Position numbers and translations under genes: made by a program. The notes under the pieces are model-generated. The model worked only from the letters and a program-made list of their open reading frames with translations. It had not been told where the DNA came from and ran no database searches. 36,049 nucleotides of DNA from an uncultured Opitutia bacterium. Its GTDB lineage: Bacteria > Verrucomicrobiota > Verrucomicrobiia > Opitutales > Opitutaceae. The DNA lies in the NCBI GenBank assembly GCA_903830425.1, contig CAIKTR010000088.1, positions 1 to 36,049 on the forward strand, written 5' to 3'. Within the stretch, counting starts at the first letter, position 1, and each line of letters opens with the position of its first letter. This document shows positions 20,698-29,514 of this stretch, piece after piece.

Positions 20698-21648
20698 TCA
20701 GGCGTTGAGCCGGGTAGGCGGCAACGTCCGCCGCAGCTCATCGAGCTGTGCGCCCAATTGGGCCAAGTCGGCCGGTTGCAGCGCGCCGATTTTCTGGCAG
20801 GTCTCGCGGTAAGCGGGCACCGCGCGTCCGCCCACGATCAGTCCGACCTCGGGCGGCAGGAGCGTGCGCAACCGGCTGAGCTCACCCGCCAGCCGCGCAT
20901 CGTCCTCCGGATAGACCAGGCTCAAGGCCACGGCCCGCGCTTGCTGCTGGCGGGCGGCCCCGGCGATCTCGGCGGCCGGTAAACTGGCCCCGAGGTAGGT
21001 GATCCGCCAGCCGAGGTTCGCGGCGAGCGCGCCGACGAGCAGCGCGCCGAGTTCGTGCAGCTGTCCGGCCGGGGTGGCGACGATCAAGACCGGCTCGCCG
21101 CCTCCCGGGGCGAAGGTCCGCGCCGCGTGGCCGAGGTAGTGGCGGAGGACGGCAGTCGCGAAATGTTCGTGGGCAACGGTGATCGTGCCATCACGCCAGA
21201 GGTCGCCGATGGCCTGAGCCAGCGGGGCGACGAGCTGCTGCAGCATGCCCTGACCGCCGAGCGCGGTGGCGGCCCGCTCGAGGGACGCCTCCAGCTTTGC
21301 GGCGTCGAGTGCCTGCACGGCGGCAAGGCATTCGGCGAGCAAGACCGCAGGCGAGACCGTTGCGGCCGACCCAGGGCCGGGGCGCGCACCCAGGGGAGGG
21401 GATTCGCGAGCGATCTTTTTGAGGCGAGCGAGGGGCAGATTCGCGACCCCGCTGATGCTCTGCCCCGACTGGGTGATTTGCCGGAGCAGGGTCAACCGCT
21501 CGATTTGTTCTGCCGAATAGCGGCGGCGGTTGGTGCCGGTACGTTCCGGGGTGACTGCCCCGTAGCGTTTTTCCCAGATCCGGATGACATGGGCGCTCAG
21601 CCCGCTGCGTTGAGCGACTGCCTTGATGGAAAAGTGGGAATCGCTCAT
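20698..21648 (-). CDS. MerR-family regulator with cobalamin-binding domain (CarH/LitR type)
   Basis: A 316-residue protein with three parts. A MerR-type winged helix lies at about residues 5-72 (FSIKAVAQRSGLSAHVIRIW, then NRRRYSAEQIERL). A four-helix B12-capping domain lies at about 100-175 and a Rossmann-like B12-binding domain at about 185-310. The light-sensor hallmarks of CarH are present: Trp151, then nine residues, then Glu161-His162 (the W-x9-EH motif), and His198 in the GQLHELG motif as the lower cobalt ligand, with LSLVYP (about 242-247) and VGGRAV (about 272-277) lining the cofactor. The acidic residue often found two before the ligand His is Gln196. In characterised CarH proteins, AdoCbl builds a DNA-bound tetramer in the dark that light destroys. 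It is divergent from a lipid-modifying cluster, which I infer it represses. A fair TATAAT lies at 21705-21700. Confidence 0.88.
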   Translation of the reverse strand: MSDSHFSIKAVAQRSGLSAHVIRIWEKRYGAVTPERTGTNRRRYSAEQIERLTLLRQITQSGQSISGVANLPLARLKKIARESPPLGARPGPGSAATVSPAVLLAECLAAVQALDAAKLEASLERAATALGGQGMLQQLVAPLAQAIGDLWRDGTITVAHEHFATAVLRHYLGHAARTFAPGGGEPVLIVATPAGQLHELGALLVGALAANLGWRITYLGASLPAAEIAGAARQQQARAVALSLVYPEDDARLAGELSRLRTLLPPEVGLIVGGRAVPAYRETCQKIGALQPADLAQLGAQLDELRRTLPPTRLNA

Positions 21649-21652
21649 AAAC

Positions 21653-21674
21653 TAGACAATAAGTAGACATATTG
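21653..21674 (+). promoter_or_regulatory. tandem 11-bp direct repeats, candidate CarH operator 1
   Basis: Two adjacent 11-mers, TAGACAATAAG (21653-21663) and TAGACATATTG (21664-21674), share an identical TAGACA core spaced exactly one helical turn. They end 5 bp before the regulator's start codon, so they lie within its leader, where binding would suit autoregulation. CarH is described as binding head-to-tail on repeats of about this length. The link to this regulator is inference. Confidence 0.55.
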
Positions 21675-21778
21675 TTCAGCGCGGAGTAAATAACAAAATA
21701 TTATATAACAGTTAAAAGCCGCAGATAGTAATGATAGATAACAGGTAAATTATAACGCAGCAAACTTACGCTAAGACA

Positions 21779-21800
21779 TAGACAAAAGCTGGACATCTAT
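21779..21800 (+). promoter_or_regulatory. tandem 11-bp direct repeats, candidate CarH operator 2
   Basis: TAGACAAAAGC (21779-21789) and TGGACATCTAT (21790-21800) repeat the pattern of site 1 with T(A/G)GACA at the start of each 11-mer. The second core resembles a -35 hexamer, so binding here could block RNA polymerase on the plus strand toward the lipid cluster. Confidence 0.5.
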
Positions 21801-21950
21801 GGCGCCGCATCTATGGATCTTCAAGCGATGACGATATCCGTAGAGCCATATTTTACTCTTCGCGTGGGTTCCCTAGCTGCGCCGAGCAAAGGCGGAGCGT
21901 CCCACGATGCCGTTGATACTGGGAAAATTTAGACGTGCGCTGCGCTTTTC

Positions 21951-23486
21951 ATGGCTGACAACAAACTGATCCTGGTCACGGGTGCCACCGGCTACGTTGG
22001 CGGGAGGCTCGTGCCCCGGTTGCTGGAGGGGGGGCATCGCGTGCGTTGCCTCGTGCGCGACCCGGCGCGCCTGCAGGGCCGGTCCTGGCTGCCGCAAGTG
22101 GAGGTGTTTTCAGGCGATGTGCTGAAGGCGGAGTCCCTGCCGGCAGCGATGCAGGGGGTCGACGCGGTTTATTACCTCGTGCACAGCATGGGTGGCGGGA
22201 GCGATTTCTCGGAACGGGACTTGCTCGCGGCCCGCAATTTCGCCGCGGCGGCCCAAGCCGCCGGCGTGCAGCGGATCGTCTATCTCGGGGGACTGGGGGA
22301 TCCGCAGGCGGAGTTGTCGCCCCATCTGCGTTCGCGGCAGGAAACGGGCGCGGCGCTGCGCGAGGCGGGGGTGCCGGTCACGGAGTTCCGCGCTGCGGTC
22401 ATCGTCGGGTCCGGCAGCCTCTCGTTCGAGCTGATCCGCTATCTCACGGAGCGGTTGCCGGTGATGATCTGCCCGCGCTGGGTGTTCACCCGCGTGCAGC
22501 CGATCGCGATCCGCAACGTGCTCGACTACCTGGTGGCCGCGCTGGATTCCGCCCCCAGCGCCGGCCGCGTGCTCGAAATCGGCGGGCAGGACGTGCTCAC
22601 CTACGCCGGCATGATGATGGGCTACGCCCAGGCGCGGGGGCTGCAGCGTCGGCTGGTTTCCGTGCCCGCGCTCACGCCGCGGATCTCCTCCTACTGGGTG
22701 CACTTGATCACCCCCATCCCCTCGGTGATCGCGCGGCCGCTCATCAAGGGGCTGGGCAACGAGGTCGTCGTGCGCGACGACACGGCCCGCCGGCTTTTTC
22801 CGGCGATCGAGTTGCTGGATTACGCCACGGCGGTGCGGCTGGCGCTGGGCAAGATCGAGACGCGCGGGGTCGAGACGGCGTGGAGTGACGCGCTCACCTC
22901 CAGCCAGGGAGAAAAGACGCCGGTGCTCCTCCTCACGAGCGACGGCATGATCATCGAGCGCCGCCGGCGGGTGGTGGCCGCGGAGGCGGGCGCGGTGTTC
23001 CGGAGTTTCGCCCGCCTGGGCGGCGCCCGGGGCTGGCTCTATCTCGACTGGACCTGGAAAATCCGCGGCATGATCGACCGCGTGTGCGGCGGGGTGGGGA
23101 TGCGGCGCGGGCGGCGCGATCCGGAAGACTTGCGGGCGGGCGATGCGCTGGACTTCTGGCGCGTCGAGGCGGTCGAGCCGGGACGTCTCGTCCGGCTCCG
23201 CGCGGAGATGCGCGTCCCGGGCCGGGCGTGGCTGGAGTTTCAGGCGACGGCCCAGCCGGACGGAACGACGGTGCTCACGCAGACCGCCTTCTTCGATCCG
23301 AAAGGCCTGCCCGGTCTGCTCTACTGGTATCTGCTCTATCCCATCCACCGCCTGATCTTCAGTGGACTCATCCGCAAACTCGCGGTGCAGGCCGCCACCC
23401 CAGCGCCGGAGGGAACTCAGACCGTCCCGGCGCCCCCGTCCAGCGAGGCCCGCCCCCCCCGTTCGCCCACCGGCAACGCATGCTGA
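21951..23486 (+). CDS. SDR-family NAD(P)-binding protein with DUF2867 domain
   Basis: A 511-residue two-domain protein. The N-terminal half is an atypical short-chain dehydrogenase with the nucleotide loop GATGYVGGRL at residues 11-20. It has YYLVHSMGGG instead of a standard YxxxK catalytic centre, so it may be a binding or unconventional redox protein. The C-terminal part (about 340-480) resembles DUF2867, with WYLLYPIHR-like hydrophobic segments near its end (LLYWYLLYPIHRLIF). Proteins with this fusion are found in light- and singlet-oxygen-induced gene clusters of Proteobacteria, from memory. It is the first gene of the cluster, 302 bp from the divergent regulator and 87 bp before the oxidoreductase gene. 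The C-terminal 25 residues are Pro-rich. Confidence 0.88.
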   Translation: MADNKLILVTGATGYVGGRLVPRLLEGGHRVRCLVRDPARLQGRSWLPQVEVFSGDVLKAESLPAAMQGVDAVYYLVHSMGGGSDFSERDLLAARNFAAAAQAAGVQRIVYLGGLGDPQAELSPHLRSRQETGAALREAGVPVTEFRAAVIVGSGSLSFELIRYLTERLPVMICPRWVFTRVQPIAIRNVLDYLVAALDSAPSAGRVLEIGGQDVLTYAGMMMGYAQARGLQRRLVSVPALTPRISSYWVHLITPIPSVIARPLIKGLGNEVVVRDDTARRLFPAIELLDYATAVRLALGKIETRGVETAWSDALTSSQGEKTPVLLLTSDGMIIERRRRVVAAEAGAVFRSFARLGGARGWLYLDWTWKIRGMIDRVCGGVGMRRGRRDPEDLRAGDALDFWRVEAVEPGRLVRLRAEMRVPGRAWLEFQATAQPDGTTVLTQTAFFDPKGLPGLLYWYLLYPIHRLIFSGLIRKLAVQAATPAPEGTQTVPAPPSSEARPPRSPTGNAC

Positions 23487-23573: not shown

Positions 23574-24911
23574 ATGCACTCCATCGCCATCATCGGCTCC
23601 GGCATCTCCGGCCTCGGGGCCGCGTGGTTTCTGCACCGCGAGTTCGACGTGACCGTGTTCGAGGCCGCCGACTACCCTGGCGGCCACACCTGCACCGTGA
23701 CCGTCGACGAGGGCGGGCGCGCGGTGCCGATCGACACCGGGTTCATGGTGTTTAACCACGTCACGTATCCGCATCTCACGCGTCTCTTCCAGGTGCTCGG
23801 CGTGTCCACCAAGCCCACCGGCATGTCGTTCGGCGTGCAGCACCGGCCCCGCGGGCTGGAGTACTCCGGCAACAGCCTGAACCACCTCTTCGCCCAGCGC
23901 CGCAATCTCCTGCGGCCCTCGTTCTACCGCCTGCTTCGGCAGATTGACCGGTTCAACCGCGAGGCCACGGCCGCGCTCGACGATCCGGCGGTCGGCCCGA
24001 TGAATCTGGACGATTACGTTCGCCGCGGCGGCTACGGCGACGACTTCACCCAACTCTACCTCCTGCCGATGTGTTCGGCGGTTTGGTCCACGCCGCCGGA
24101 GAAGATGCGGCGATTTCCCGCGGCGACCCTCCTGCGCTTCCTGCACAACCACGGCTTGCTCGGGCTGGACACGCAGCACCAGTGGTGGACGGTGGAGGGC
24201 GGGGCGCACCGTTATGTGGAAAAACTCACCGCGCCGTTCCGTGACCGGATCCGCCTGCGCACCCCGGTGCGCGGCGTGCGGCGCCTCGCCGCTGGCGGGG
24301 TGGAGATCACGACGGAGACCGAGGCCGCGCACTTCGACAAGGTCATCCTCGCCTGCCACCCGCCGACCACCCTCGCGCTGCTCGGCGCGGGGGCCACGGC
24401 CGAGGAGCGCCACGGGCTGGCCCCTTTTCACTACCAGCCCAACACCGCCACGCTGCACACCGACGAGGCCGTCATGCCCCGGACGCGCCGGGCCTGGTCG
24501 GCGTGGAACTACCGGCTCGATGCCCCCGCCGCCCCAGCTGGGGATGCACCCGGAGTGGGTGCCGCCAACCTGAGCGTCTCCACGCACTACTGGATGAACC
24601 GGCTGCAGGGCGTCTCCGACCAAGTGAACTATTTTGTTTCCATCGGGGGCGGGCATCTGACCGCCCCGGAGCAGACGCTGCGCACGCTGGACTACGAACA
24701 CCCACTGTTCGACCTCGCCGCGGCGCAGGCGCAGCCCGGCCTCGCCGGCCTCAATGCCAGTGCCCGGGGCCGGACCGAGACCTACTTTGCGGGCGCCTGG
24801 CAGCGCTACGGTTTTCACGAGGACGGACTGCTCTCCGCCGTGAATCTCGCCACGCTCCTCCTCGGCCGTGATCCCTGGACCTCCGCGGGGGTAGTCGGGC
24901 CAAGCCCATGA
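23574..24911 (+). CDS. FAD-dependent oxidoreductase of the amine-oxidase/desaturase fold
   Basis: A 445-residue flavoprotein. The FAD-binding loop IIGSGISGLGAAWFL lies at residues 5-19, with the ribose-binding Glu in VFEAADYPGGH (about 28-38). The rest of the sequence matches the large phytoene desaturase/amine oxidase family, for example MCSAVWSTPPEKMRRFPA and QHQWWTVEGGAHRYVEKL. Relatives sit beside DUF1365 and Cfa-like genes in many bacteria, and one is reported to dehydrogenate methylated fatty acids in furan fatty acid synthesis. The same role here is an inference. Residues about 318-332 (PAAPAGDAPGVGAAN) look like a short insertion coded by two back-to-back hairpins. The stop overlaps the DUF1365 start by 4 nt. 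Confidence 0.88.
   Translation: MHSIAIIGSGISGLGAAWFLHREFDVTVFEAADYPGGHTCTVTVDEGGRAVPIDTGFMVFNHVTYPHLTRLFQVLGVSTKPTGMSFGVQHRPRGLEYSGNSLNHLFAQRRNLLRPSFYRLLRQIDRFNREATAALDDPAVGPMNLDDYVRRGGYGDDFTQLYLLPMCSAVWSTPPEKMRRFPAATLLRFLHNHGLLGLDTQHQWWTVEGGAHRYVEKLTAPFRDRIRLRTPVRGVRRLAAGGVEITTETEAAHFDKVILACHPPTTLALLGAGATAEERHGLAPFHYQPNTATLHTDEAVMPRTRRAWSAWNYRLDAPAAPAGDAPGVGAANLSVSTHYWMNRLQGVSDQVNYFVSIGGGHLTAPEQTLRTLDYEHPLFDLAAAQAQPGLAGLNASARGRTETYFAGAWQRYGFHEDGLLSAVNLATLLLGRDPWTSAGVVGPSP
24532..24562. repeat. two back-to-back palindromes inside the FAD oxidoreductase gene
   Basis: CCCCAGCTGGGG (24532-24543) is a perfect palindrome followed 2 bp later by GCACCC and GGGTGC (24546-24551 and 24557-24562) around a 5-nt loop. 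Both fall within one poorly conserved loop of the protein and keep the frame. The first 12-mer recurs in the histidine kinase gene at 28070-28081. Confidence 0.5.
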
Positions 24912-25777
24912 ACCCGGCCGTCACCGCCTCCGCGCTCTACGAGTGCACCGTCCGGCATGAGCGCTTCGCCCCCCAGCGCCATCTCTTCGCGTACCGACTG
25001 TTCTACTTTGCGCTCGATCTCGACGAACTCGACACGCTGCCGGACCGTCTCGCGTTGTTCTCCCTCCGGCGAGTCAACTGCTTCCAATTTCGCGAATGCG
25101 ACTTCCTGCCCACCGGTGAGCCGCTGCACCACCCGACGGGAGCGGCGCCGGCGCTGACGGCGGCCAGCGAACCTGCGTCGCTGAAATCCCGGGTGCGCGC
25201 TTTTTGTTCCGCCCACGGCGCGGACTTTGGGCCGGATGGTCGCGTGCTGTTGATTACGATTCCACGCGTCTTCGGCTTCCAGTTCAACCCGGTCTCCTTC
25301 TACTACTGCTTCGACGCCGCCGGCCGGCCCGTCGGGGCGATTGCCGAGGTGACGAACACCTATCGCGAGGTGAAGCTGTATTTCGTCCCGCCGTCCGCCG
25401 GCTGGAACGGCGTGTTCCACCTGCACACTCCGAAGCAGTTCTATGTGTCCCCGTTCTTCGGACTGGAGCTGATGTTTGACCTCACGCTGCGCGTCCCGGG
25501 CGAAAAACTTTCGGTGCGGATTGACGACCACGACGGCGGCCGTTGCGTGCTGCACACCACCCTCACCGGCGCGCGCCGGCCCCTGACCGACGCCCGGCTC
25601 GCCTGGTTCCTGCTGAAGTATCCGCTGGTCACGCTCCGGATCGTGGCGCGCATCCATTGGCAGGCTTTCCGGCTGTGGCTCAAGCGCGTGCCCTACTTCC
25701 CGAAGTCTGACGGGGCCGCGGCGCAGCGCGACCTGTACCGCCCGCACGCGTCCATCGCCGACCATTCCTCCCCATGA
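24908..25777 (+). CDS. DUF1365 family protein
   Basis: A 289-residue protein matching DUF1365 over its length. It has the N-terminal YECTVRHERFAPQRHLFAYRLFYFALDLDEL, the central FGFQFNPVSFYYCFD (about residues 120-134) and VTNTYREVKLYFV, followed by HTPKQFYVSPF. The family has no established reaction but is almost always next to a Cfa-like methyltransferase and an FAD oxidoreductase, which is the case here. No signal peptide is present, and a C-terminal hydrophobic stretch (WFLLKYPLVTLRIVARIHWQAFRLWL) may associate with membrane. It overlaps both neighbours by 4 nt. Confidence 0.93.
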   Translation: MNPAVTASALYECTVRHERFAPQRHLFAYRLFYFALDLDELDTLPDRLALFSLRRVNCFQFRECDFLPTGEPLHHPTGAAPALTAASEPASLKSRVRAFCSAHGADFGPDGRVLLITIPRVFGFQFNPVSFYYCFDAAGRPVGAIAEVTNTYREVKLYFVPPSAGWNGVFHLHTPKQFYVSPFFGLELMFDLTLRVPGEKLSVRIDDHDGGRCVLHTTLTGARRPLTDARLAWFLLKYPLVTLRIVARIHWQAFRLWLKRVPYFPKSDGAAAQRDLYRPHASIADHSSP

Positions 25778-27090
25778 ACTCGACCGAACACCTGGCGCCC
25801 CGGGGCGCCACCGCTCCGACGACTTCCGGCGGCTTCTACCAGCGTCTGACCCTCCGGGCCCTGGCGCAGATGCACCGCGGACAACTCCAACTCGTCCTGC
25901 CCGACGGGACGATCCATCGCCTGGGCCAACATGACCGCGCGCCGTGGCACGCCACCACCCGGGCGCCCGCCGCCCTGGTCATCCCGGAAACCGCGACGAT
26001 CCAGGTCCGCCGCCCCGCCTTCTTCGAGCAGTGCGTGCTGCACGGCGACATCGGTTTTGCCGAGGCCTTCATCGCCGGCGATTGGGAAACGCCCGATCTG
26101 GCCGCGGTCATCGCTTGGTTTGTGCTCAATGTCGACCGCTCGCCCTCGCTCTCTGGTTCCCGCGCGAAGGCGCTCGGGGTCAACCTGCTCCGCGCCGCCA
26201 ACCGGCTGGGTCACCTGATTCGCCCCAACTCCCGGAGCAAGGCCGTCCGGAACATCCGGGAGCACTACGACCTCTCCAACGATTTCTTTCGCCTCTGGCT
26301 CGACCCCTCGATGATGTATTCCGCCGCCCGCTGGGCGCGCCCCGAGTTCACGTTGGAGGAGGCGCAACGGGCGAAAAACGAATCGCTCTGCCAAAAGCTG
26401 CGGCTCACCGCCACGGATCACGTGCTCGAGATCGGCACCGGCTGGGGCGCCTGGAGCCTGCACGCGGCCCGGAACTTTGGCTGCCGCGTCACCACCCTGA
26501 CGCTCTCGCAGGAGCAGTACGATCTGGCGCGGCAACGCATCGCCGCCGCCGGCCTCGCCGACCGCATCGACGTGCGCCTGCAGGACTACCGGGATCTCCC
26601 CGCGGGCGAGCAGTACGACAAGCTCGTCTCGATCGAGATGCTGGAGGCCGTCGGCCATCGTTACCTCGAGGCGTGGTGTCGCGTCGCGGCCCGCGCCCTG
26701 AAACCCGACGGACTGATGGCGCTGCAGTACATCACCTGCGCCGACTCCCGCTACGAGGAACTCCGCCGCGGGGTGGACTTCATTCAGAAGCACATCTTTC
26801 CCGGCGGGCTGATCCTCTCGGTGAACCGGCTCAACGACCTGCTCGCCGCGACGGGAGGCTTTGTCCTCCACTCGCTCGAGGATCTGGGCCAGGACTACGC
26901 ACGCACGCTCCGTGTCTGGCGCGGGGAGTTCAACCGGCAGTCCGCGGCCGTGCAGGAGCTGGGGTTCGACGACCGCTTCCAGCGCAAGTGGAACTACTAC
27001 CTGTCCTACTGCGAAGCCGCCTTCGCCCTGCGCAACATCAGCGTCGTGCAAACCGTGCATACGCGCCCCAACAACCTGTCCTATTCCTGA
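25774..27090 (+). CDS. Cfa-like SAM-dependent fatty-acid methyltransferase
   Basis: A 438-residue member of the cyclopropane-fatty-acyl-phospholipid synthase family, which transfers a methyl group from SAM to the double bond of a membrane lipid acyl chain. The SAM motif is VLEIGTGWGAWSLHAA at 217-232. The conserved active-site Glu is in SIEMLEAVGHRYLEAW (Glu291) and a Tyr in LGQDYARTLRVW (Tyr375). Two bicarbonate ligands of E. coli Cfa, Cys139 and His266, correspond here to Ala184 (YSAARW) and Gln318 (MALQYIT). Such a site is seen in UfaA1/UfaM-type enzymes, which make methyl-branched rather than cyclopropane products. The alignment was made by eye. It is the fourth gene of the cluster. Confidence 0.93.
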   Translation: MNSTEHLAPRGATAPTTSGGFYQRLTLRALAQMHRGQLQLVLPDGTIHRLGQHDRAPWHATTRAPAALVIPETATIQVRRPAFFEQCVLHGDIGFAEAFIAGDWETPDLAAVIAWFVLNVDRSPSLSGSRAKALGVNLLRAANRLGHLIRPNSRSKAVRNIREHYDLSNDFFRLWLDPSMMYSAARWARPEFTLEEAQRAKNESLCQKLRLTATDHVLEIGTGWGAWSLHAARNFGCRVTTLTLSQEQYDLARQRIAAAGLADRIDVRLQDYRDLPAGEQYDKLVSIEMLEAVGHRYLEAWCRVAARALKPDGLMALQYITCADSRYEELRRGVDFIQKHIFPGGLILSVNRLNDLLAATGGFVLHSLEDLGQDYARTLRVWRGEFNRQSAAVQELGFDDRFQRKWNYYLSYCEAAFALRNISVVQTVHTRPNNLSYS

Positions 27091-27111: not shown

Positions 27112-27507
27112 ATGCTCTGGCTATTACGTTTTCTCTTTCTCGGCGTGCTTGGCGCGATGCTCTGGGTGACCACCCGGGCCAGCCTGCACCAGTCGATCTA
27201 CGCCATTCCGCGCGAGGTGCTCACGCATCCGTGGTTCCTGGCCACGCTCTTCGACGCCTACTGCGGCTTTCTCACCTTCTACCTCTGGCAGGCCTGGAAG
27301 GAGCAGAGCCTGGCGGCCCGGGTGCTGTGGTTCATCGCGGTCATGCTGCTGGGCAACCTGGCCATGGCGCTCTATGTGCTCGCCGAGCTTTTTCGCATCC
27401 GCACGTCCTCCGAGCTCGCCGAGGTCATCACCCGCCGCAATCCGGGACGGCTCCCGCTGCCGGCCGCGCTGGTCGCGGCCGCCTTGGCCGTCTATCTGCT
27501 GGCCTGA
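27112..27507 (+). CDS. small membrane protein, DUF1475-like
   Basis: A 131-residue protein with about four transmembrane helices. It resembles DUF1475 (LWVTTRASLHQSIYAIPREVL, then PWFLATLFDAYCGFLTFYLWQAWKEQ), a small family of unknown function found with lipid-modifying clusters. It follows the Cfa-like gene by 21 bp and is probably the last gene of the operon. No terminator was recognised in the 88 bp between it and the convergent tRNA. Confidence 0.75.
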   Translation: MLWLLRFLFLGVLGAMLWVTTRASLHQSIYAIPREVLTHPWFLATLFDAYCGFLTFYLWQAWKEQSLAARVLWFIAVMLLGNLAMALYVLAELFRIRTSSELAEVITRRNPGRLPLPAALVAAALAVYLLA

Positions 27508-27595: not shown

Positions 27596-27683
27596 TGGCG
27601 GAGAGGGAGGGATTCGAACCCCCGGAGCCTTGCGGCTCAGCGGTTTTCAAGACCGCCGCGATAGACCACTCTGCCACCTCTCC
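27596..27683 (-). tRNA. tRNA-Ser (anticodon UGA)
   Basis: An 88-nt cloverleaf on the minus strand. The acceptor stem GGAGAGG (5' end at 27683) pairs with CCTCTCC, the discriminator is G, and CCA is encoded (27598-27596). The anticodon loop CTTGAAA gives UGA, which reads UCN serine codons, and the long variable arm expected of class II tRNA-Ser is present (GAGCCGCAAGGCTC). The T-loop is the standard GGTTCGAATCC. It is convergent with the lipid cluster. Confidence 0.97.
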
Positions 27684-27923: not shown

Positions 27924-28922
27924 ATGGACGCGGCGATTCTGAGTGCGATTCTGGCTGACGATCTCCCGGCTGTTCCGGCCATTGCCAGTCTGTTGACCGG
28001 TTTCGAGGCGGTCCTGTTCACGATGACGCAACAGCTGGTCCGCCTGGCGAGACAGACGGAAAACGAGCCCCAGCTGGGGCAACGGAAACTCCCTGAAGAG
28101 TTGGCAAGCGGAGGGGCCGCGACGCTCGCCGGTCCGGCGGGGGAGCGGGACGCGATACACGATGAGACCGTGTGGCGGGCCCGGATCGCGCAACTTGGCG
28201 AGTTGACGGCGGCGATCGCGCACGAGCTCCGGCAACCGCTCGCCGCCATGGCGCTGAGTGCCCAGGCGGCTCGCCATTATTCCTCGCCGACCCTGAGCCG
28301 GCGGGCGCTCGTCGGTGAATTGCTCGACGACATCATCCAGGCCGGCCGGCAAGCCGACGCGGTGGTCCAGCGACTGCAGGGCCTGCTGCGCCGCGAGCCG
28401 GTCCGCCAGGGTCCGGTCGATCTCAATGAGGTCGTAACGCTCACCCTGGTGTCGCTCCAGCGTGAGTTGGTCCTGAGTGGGGCGGGCTGCCGGGTCCAGT
28501 TGCAGGAGAATTTGCCGCGCGTGTCAGGCGATCCAGTCCAGCTCGGGCAGGTCGTGGCTCATTTGGTGGTCAATGCGTGTGACGCCATGGCGTCGGCCCC
28601 GGCCGCGGAACGCCTGGTCATGGTGCGCACCTGGCGTGGATCGGCGGGTGAGGCCTGTCTCGCGGTGGGGGACCGGGGAATGGGCCTGGCTCCGGAAGTG
28701 CGGGACACGCTGTTTCAGCCCGTGCCCACCGCCAAGCCGGGTCGGCTCGGTCTGGGCCTCGCCTACTGCCGGACCATCGCCGTGGCGCACGGCGGGACGA
28801 TCGCTGGTGAAAACCACCCGGACGGCCCTGGGTCCGTCTTCACGCTGACCTTGCCCGCACCGGTTCCAGCACCCGAGTCCTCCCCGCATGACCCCGCCGA
28901 GCACCATATTTATCGTGGATGA
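27924..28922 (+). CDS. soluble sensor histidine kinase (FixL/NtrB-like core)
   Basis: A 332-residue histidine kinase with no transmembrane segment. The dimerisation/phosphoacceptor helix carries His100 in ELTAAIAHELRQPLAAMAL. The ATP-binding lobe shows the N box HLVVNACDAM (Asn217), the G1 box VGDRGMGL (Asp250) and the G2 box GLGLAYC (about 275-282). The first 85 residues do not resemble a PAS or GAF sensor and look largely helical or low-complexity, so the input is unknown and might be another protein. The kinase core is of the type paired with FixJ-like regulators. Its 3' end overlaps the regulator gene by 35 bp, so the two are surely co-transcribed. Confidence 0.9.
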   Translation: MDAAILSAILADDLPAVPAIASLLTGFEAVLFTMTQQLVRLARQTENEPQLGQRKLPEELASGGAATLAGPAGERDAIHDETVWRARIAQLGELTAAIAHELRQPLAAMALSAQAARHYSSPTLSRRALVGELLDDIIQAGRQADAVVQRLQGLLRREPVRQGPVDLNEVVTLTLVSLQRELVLSGAGCRVQLQENLPRVSGDPVQLGQVVAHLVVNACDAMASAPAAERLVMVRTWRGSAGEACLAVGDRGMGLAPEVRDTLFQPVPTAKPGRLGLGLAYCRTIAVAHGGTIAGENHPDGPGSVFTLTLPAPVPAPESSPHDPAEHHIYRG

Positions 28923-29514
28923 CGATGTGCGCGTGCTGAAGGCGCTGCGTCACCTGCTCCAGACCGCGGGTTATGCCGTGCGGGACTTCGCTGCGCCGGA
29001 AATATTTCTCCGGCAACACGACCTGGCCCGTCCGGGCTGCGTGATCTGTGACATGGCGATGCCCGGCATGAACGGACTGGCGCTGCACCGGGCGCTCAAG
29101 GTCCAGGGGTGCCGGCGCCCCTTCATTTTTCTCACGGGCCACGGCACGATCCCGGGCTCGGTGCAGGCCATTCAGGAAGGAGCGGTCAGCTATCTCACCA
29201 AGCCGGTCGACGCCGCGGTCCTGTTCCCAACGCTGCGCACGGCGCTCCAGCGCGACGCGGAGGTGCGGGCCATGCAAGTGCAGCTCTCCTCCCTGACCGT
29301 GCGGGAGCGGGAGGTGCTGGCGCACATCGCCACGGGGCAACTCAACAAGCAGATTGCCGGCAGCTGCGGCGTGGCGGAGCGCACCATCAAGTTTCATCGG
29401 GCGAACCTCATGCGGAAACTCGGGCTCACCACGGCGGCCCGGCTGGGCGGCTGGGTGATCCAGTCCGGGTTGCTGGGCCCGGACTTGGCCCTGGGCGTCA
29501 AGGCCGTGTCGTAA
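28888..29514 (+). CDS. FixJ/NarL-family response regulator
   Basis: A 208-residue regulator. The receiver domain (about 5-125) has acidic pocket residues in FIVDDDVR, the phosphoacceptor Asp55 in CVICDMAMPGMNG, Thr83 and Lys105 (LTKPVDAA). A LuxR-type helix-turn-helix follows at about 134-190 (LTVREREVLAHIATGQLNKQIAGSCGVAERTIKFHRANLMRKL). Phosphorylation by the upstream kinase should promote DNA binding. Targets are unknown; the lipid cluster and regulator region upstream are candidates by location only. Confidence 0.95.
   Translation: MTPPSTIFIVDDDVRVLKALRHLLQTAGYAVRDFAAPEIFLRQHDLARPGCVICDMAMPGMNGLALHRALKVQGCRRPFIFLTGHGTIPGSVQAIQEGAVSYLTKPVDAAVLFPTLRTALQRDAEVRAMQVQLSSLTVREREVLAHIATGQLNKQIAGSCGVAERTIKFHRANLMRKLGLTTAARLGGWVIQSGLLGPDLALGVKAVS

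Follow-up and report, generated by a model that had tools for sequence, protein, structure and literature searches.

CarH operators comprise three repeats in Thermus and four in Bacillus megaterium, and in myxobacteria the -35 element TTGACA lies within one repeat. The published repeats are 11-bp units of the form nAnnTnnACAn (PMC8156234), also given as nnnnTnnACAn (PMC9304148). Sites with just one or two perfect repeats are bound by CarH of B. megaterium and of myxobacteria, and for the dimer of the Cystobacter protein (CarHCfu) two tandem repeats are enough to give a stable complex (PMC9304148). A light signature composed of the motifs GxxW, EH, GxxH and GxxxP has been reported for AdoCbl photoreceptors (PMC11796333). 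In Pseudomonas, the light regulon controlled by LitR includes an SDR, an FAD oxidoreductase and ufaM (PMC9758184). The furan fatty acid pathway, in which UfaO carries DUF1365, has been linked to singlet-oxygen stress (PMC7380195).

Our literature search found no paper mentioning CarH together with Verrucomicrobi and cobalamin. The window analysed here is the whole 36,049-nucleotide stretch of contig CAIKTR010000088.1 from an uncultured Opitutia bacterium (assembly GCA_903830425.1). It very probably contains a known kind of switch in a phylum for which we found no prior description, with two pairs of tandem repeats as the dark-bound sites of the regulator.

The regulator, the divergent gap and the lipid operon

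The locus consists of a regulator gene and a divergent operon, separated by a gap of 302 bp (21649-21950). Its features are as follows:

20698-21648, minus strand: CarH/LitR-type regulator (MerR DNA-binding domain, B12-binding_2 helical bundle and B12-binding Rossmann domain)
21649-21659, plus strand: putative proximal operator repeat 1, aaacTAGACAa (nAnnTnnACAn), directly next to the start codon of the regulator gene
21660-21670, plus strand: putative proximal operator repeat 2, taagTAGACAt
21775-21785, plus strand: putative distal operator repeat 1, gacaTAGACAa
21786-21796, plus strand: putative distal operator repeat 2, aagcTGGACAt, in which TGGACA is a candidate -35 of the lipid operon
21951-23486, plus strand: SDR/NmrA-like NAD-binding protein with DUF2867, first gene of the divergent operon
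23574-24911, plus strand: FAD-dependent amine-oxidase-like protein, a possible UfaD counterpart
24908-25777, plus strand: DUF1365 protein of the UfaO type
25774-27090, plus strand: cyclopropane-fatty-acid synthase/UfaM-like methyltransferase (CMAS)
27112-27507, plus strand: DUF1475 membrane protein, which ends the conserved set

The Pfam domains of the regulator are PF13411 (residues 6-70), PF02607 (104-173) and PF02310 (188-284), and its best PDB match is Thermus CarH (3whp/5c8d, E 4e-25) over residues 5-298, almost its whole length. It harbours the Wx9EH motif of AdoCbl recognition (W151-x9-E161-H162), of which W151 and E161 are invariant and H162 nearly invariant in the orthologue alignment, as well as a cobalt-ligand-type His (H198) conserved in the orthologues. 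All four motifs of the light signature are present, namely G148DLW151, E161H162, G195QLH198 and G220ASLP224. Against the NCBIfam CarH equivalog NF052513, the protein scores 114 bits, far below the cut-off of 400, and we therefore describe it as a homologous CarH/LitR-type protein rather than as a member of that equivalog. The same genome encodes a photolyase and an ATP:cob(I)alamin adenosyltransferase, the latter as a fragment at the end of a contig. A clear orthologue of the regulator is missing from ten further genomes of the genus, G015, G059 and G085 among them. The locus is thus patchily distributed, by gain or by multiple losses.

An earlier note, made from the sequence alone, had described two tandem pairs of 11-bp T(A/G)GACA repeats in the gap, one of them in the regulator leader; this observation is confirmed. 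The proximal pair has TAGACA cores at 21653-21658 and 21664-21669 and is situated 4-21 nt ahead of the start codon of the regulator, and the distal pair has TAGACA at 21779-21784 and TGGACA at 21790-21795, all on the plus strand. The 11-mers adjoin directly in both pairs, with a step of exactly 11 bp inside each pair and 126 bp from pair to pair. Each of the four units conforms to the nAnnTnnACAn half-site published for CarH and has its A at position 2. Each site holds two perfect repeats, and the degenerate repeats flanking them are weak, with one or two of the four core bases.

Other repeated elements were found in the gap. A 20-nt direct repeat (21697-21716 and 21730-21749, 80% identical, 33 bp apart) sits in the AT-rich middle, across the likely promoter of the regulator, and just 3' of the distal pair CATCTATGG is present twice (21794-21802 and 21808-21816, 14 bp apart). 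We also considered DNA looping between the two pairs. Their spacing of 126 bp corresponds to 12.0 turns in the window, but the distances in relatives (about 100-137 bp) hold no helical phase, and looping was rejected.

Two copies of the motif TRGACA-N5-TRGACA exist in the window, against zero in 100 shuffles; the 3.51-Mb genome as a whole likewise has two, with none for the reversed control. Relaxing the motif to TNGACA-N5-TNGACA still yielded only two matches genome-wide, both inside this gap. For a further count we used the TnnACA core, which was taken from publications independently of the earlier reader's choice and was not fitted to this site. When the gap was shuffled with its dinucleotides preserved, two TnnACA-N5-TnnACA pairs arose in 3 of 100,000 cases; for its AT-rich 152 bp, the figure was 15 of 100,000. 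Based on these counts and on their near-uniqueness in the genome, the repeats are not a product of chance, in agreement with the earlier note. A survey of 16 genomes of the family gave 18 TWGACA-N5-TWGACA sites, of which 16 are located in the gap beside the regulator gene. The 3.5-kb photolyase locus has no TnnACA tandem pair, and no further TNGACA pair was detected genome-wide; this locus was thus ruled out as a second target in this genome.

Domain searches showed that the CMAS, FAD amine-oxidase and DUF1365 genes are adjacent, and the same FAD/DUF1365/CFA module occurs in 10-11 loci of relatives. By analogy with described pathways, the operon is probably devoted to furan- or cyclopropane-type fatty-acid modification. 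The lipid operon is followed by a tRNA-Ser (TGA) gene at 27596-27683 on the minus strand, through which a spurious ORF reads.

Conservation of the repeats and promoter architecture in relatives

Orthologues were collected from part of the family and from 80 contigs, nearly all of Verrucomicrobiota, and pairs were counted over the 300 bp upstream of 75 related regulators, mostly from that phylum. We found 117 TnnACA pairs at an offset of 11, compared with 0-9 at the other offsets up to 15; on the window's strand, further peaks appear at 19 and 30. Only 6 pairs at offset 11 are seen on the opposite strand. With the TnGACA core, the corresponding number is 44, and none occurred in 327 control stretches. 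At least one perfect tandem pair is found on the window's strand in 60 of the 75 loci (five loci for the other strand), and 37 loci have two or more. Across the phylum, the repeats ahead of the orthologues keep the same 11-bp register, TnnACA core and strand.

The proximal pair of relatives usually begins 4-6 nt from the regulator start codon. At this position, at least seven of the eight core bases are present in 58 of 76 upstream regions, the window included, versus 1 of 75 at a control position. The distal site of most relatives has three to five repeats. Eleven loci have kept the regulator together with all or part of the FAD/DUF1365/CFA module, and ten of these hold at least one perfect tandem pair; the footprinting that the earlier note had proposed as a check thus supports its claim. 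In other relatives, the divergent gene codes for a fasciclin protein, a CrtI-family phytoene desaturase, a sigma factor or an SRPBCC protein, and the repeats are still there. Since they persist where the divergent genes differ, the repeats track the regulator and not the target.

The neighbours themselves are diverse. Secreted fasciclin-domain proteins are commonly encoded divergently from the CarH orthologues (L037, L049, L058 and others), including in the betaproteobacterium Eleftheria (L134). Phytoene desaturases are the classic output of CarH, and CrtI-type enzymes are encoded divergently from orthologues with the same operator plan in L041, L050, L055 and L071. The L041 gene (4229-5779, minus strand) scores 543 bits against TIGR02734 (cut-off 238), and those of the other three loci were placed only by their Pfam amine-oxidase domain and N-terminal likeness. 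Judging from these gene arrangements, light probably controls carotenoid synthesis in some Verrucomicrobiota. RpoD-like sigma factor genes, confirmed with Pfam, are divergent from the regulator in L074 and L090, with similar loci in L070, L072, L073 and L088, hinting at a light-induced sigma cascade. Contig CALQJI020000016.1 (L036) bears the label Klebsiella pneumoniae, but its CarH locus is verrucomicrobial, with 65% identity to the query, and it is probably a mislabelled MAG. No tandem pair was found upstream of the plasmid-borne alphaproteobacterial, Comamonas and Caballeronia homologues.

For promoter anchoring, we used 42 loci with TTGACN and a repeat-like unit 11 bp upstream, selected without regard to the downstream sequence. 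Perfect repeats follow the -35 TTGACA at +19 in 25 of these loci and at +30 in 20. Furthermore, A24 and T28 are conserved among the 42 loci, corresponding to a -10 element at a 17-bp spacer. Because the -35 TTGACA is itself one repeat and A24 and T28 mark the -10, the distal array of relatives overlies a sigma-70-like promoter, with one repeat forming the -35 and a further one extending into the -10.

In the window, the claim of the earlier note that the distal pair overlaps a -35-like element holds in a weak form. TGGACA (21790) shares five of six bases with TTGACA and could be the -35 of the lipid operon, which makes the overlap plausible, but no promoter passed a sigma-70 scan of the gap and no recognisable -10 follows TGGACA. 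Another reading of the alignment would match AAGACA (21773) with the TTGACA of relatives.

These features suggest that verrucomicrobial CarH proteins might use a distinct operator plan. It would comprise a two-repeat site abutting the regulator's own start codon, where the ribosome-binding site would lie, and a distal array whose 11-bp repeats shift register by 3 bp behind the -35 (steps of 11, 8, 11 and 11), one repeat being the -35 and another providing the first bases of the -10; the identity of the repeats may track residue 27 of the regulator. Taken as a whole, we regard this proposal as evenly balanced between right and wrong. In loci L045-L085, WEQRY orthologues are found with TnYACA repeats, and WEKRY or WERRY orthologues with TnRACA. 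As a raw count, residue 27 of the recognition helix and the third repeat base (K/R with purine, Q with pyrimidine) give 48:1 versus 1:10 (Fisher p 1.6e-9). A tree from which the DNA-binding domain was left out shows only two changes and one supported independent pair. Just one or two evolutionary changes are thus involved, and the correspondence is a lead only. If true, residue 27 would be a readable specificity code. A universal residue-27 rule was rejected, as it is contradicted by Thermus CarH, which has R27 with TGTACA/TATACA.

A proposed light switch and its alternatives

We hold it to be highly probable that the two tandem pairs are CarH-type operators of the adjoining B12 photoreceptor repressor, whose dark AdoCbl form would repress both its own gene and the lipid operon, and that light would derepress both. 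We infer the binding by this regulator, the dependence on B12 and light, the repression and the lipid product from the features of the locus. Points against this reading are the two repeats per site, fewer than at most known operators, the lack of a recognisable -10 after TGGACA, the low score against the CarH equivalog and the patchy occurrence of the locus. The operator assignment made by the earlier note is supported by the conservation of register, core and strand in the orthologues. A search by the same rule ahead of carH of Thermus thermophilus HB8 (pTT27), run as a positive control, recovers the three-repeat operator, TGTACA-TTGACA-TATACA at 11-bp steps.

One MerR-type DNA-binding domain would contact each 11-bp unit, and each pair would accommodate one head-to-tail CarH dimer, i.e. 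half of the AdoCbl tetramer, a dimer of head-to-tail dimers. In the dark, the AdoCbl-loaded regulator would occupy the proximal pair, between its own promoter and start codon, and create an autoregulatory block. On the distal pair, it would occlude the promoter of the SDR - FAD oxidoreductase - DUF1365 - CFA/UfaM - DUF1475 operon. Exposure to green, blue or UV light would break the Co-C bond, the tetramer would dissociate and the DNA would be freed. A membrane fatty-acid modification of the methylated, furan or cyclopropane type, protective against photo-oxidation, would then be turned on.

It is possible but unlikely that the adjacent regulator does use the repeats as its operators but acts independently of light, for example as a B12-independent CarA-like or a LOV-partnered class II LitR-like repressor. 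There are precedents, as CarA binds the same operator without B12 (PMC8156234) and PmlR2 is switched by its LOV partner and not by B12 of its own (PMC9758184). Furthermore, our regulator has Q at the position two residues ahead of the cobalt-ligand-type His, where Thermus CarH has E. Nevertheless, Wx9EH, whose absence is said to explain the B12 independence of CarA, is present here and near-invariant in the orthologues, and both the complete light signature and the cobalamin adenosyltransferase of the genome also count against this reading. Very improbably, the sites belong to another DNA-binding protein, e.g. the LuxR-type response regulator encoded at 28888-29514 or an unseen global regulator. 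LuxR-type regulators use short repeats too, but the repeats follow the regulator gene across differing divergent genes (fasciclin, CrtI, sigma factor, SRPBCC and lipid module) and are almost absent elsewhere in the genomes. Lastly, TAGACA and TGGACA each share five of six bases with TTGACA, itself a repeat in relatives, but it is barely credible that the distal pair is a mere run of -35-like hexamers and the proximal pair a chance occurrence. The exact 11-bp register, the constant position of the proximal pair beside the start codon, on the opposite strand from the regulator gene, and the TCCACA or TATACA cores of repeats in sister lineages are not features of promoters.

A CarH-type switch at this locus would extend direct B12-based light control, with operators readable from sequence, to the Verrucomicrobiota. 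It would tie light to a membrane fatty-acid module here, and to carotenoid, fasciclin or sigma-factor genes in relatives. The analysis also provides defined sites of 17-22 bp for footprinting and, for green-light optogenetics, a collection of natural operators from across the phylum.

Comparison with known systems

The UfaM-UfaD-UfaO furan fatty acid pathway of Rhodobacter sphaeroides shares the CFA-type methyltransferase and the DUF1365 protein with the lipid operon; it is under the control of ChrR (PMC7380195), and the FAD protein of the window is a putative UfaD equivalent. The lipid cluster also resembles the light-inducible LitR region of Pseudomonas, with its SDR, FAD oxidoreductase and UfaM (PMC9758184). 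The class II LitR proteins PplR1 and PmlR2 of Pseudomonas likewise have two sites, one over a -35 and one in a leader, a layout that would also fit the window, and the relatives of the window share with them an 18-20-bp step from the -35 to the next repeat. In contrast, the Pseudomonas sites are of the form T(G/A)TACA-N12-TGTA(C/T)A, with an 18-bp step, and the switch is a LOV protein (PMC9758184).

The CarH operators of B. megaterium and myxobacteria have TnnACA at 11-bp steps with the -35 TTGACA as one repeat, like those of the window's relatives. They differ in having three to five contiguous or degenerate repeats and in targeting carotenoid genes (PMC9304148). The Thermus operator consists of three contiguous repeats at one site facing carH, whereas the window has two separate two-repeat sites facing the divergent operon, and the middle bases of its repeats, AG or GG, are unlike those of Thermus. 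Nevertheless, both are composed of 11-bp tandem direct repeats with a TnnACA core, and the distal pair of the window, TAGACAAAAGCTGGACA, is identical to Thermus DR1-DR2, TGTACAAAAGCTTGACA, at 14 of 17 positions.
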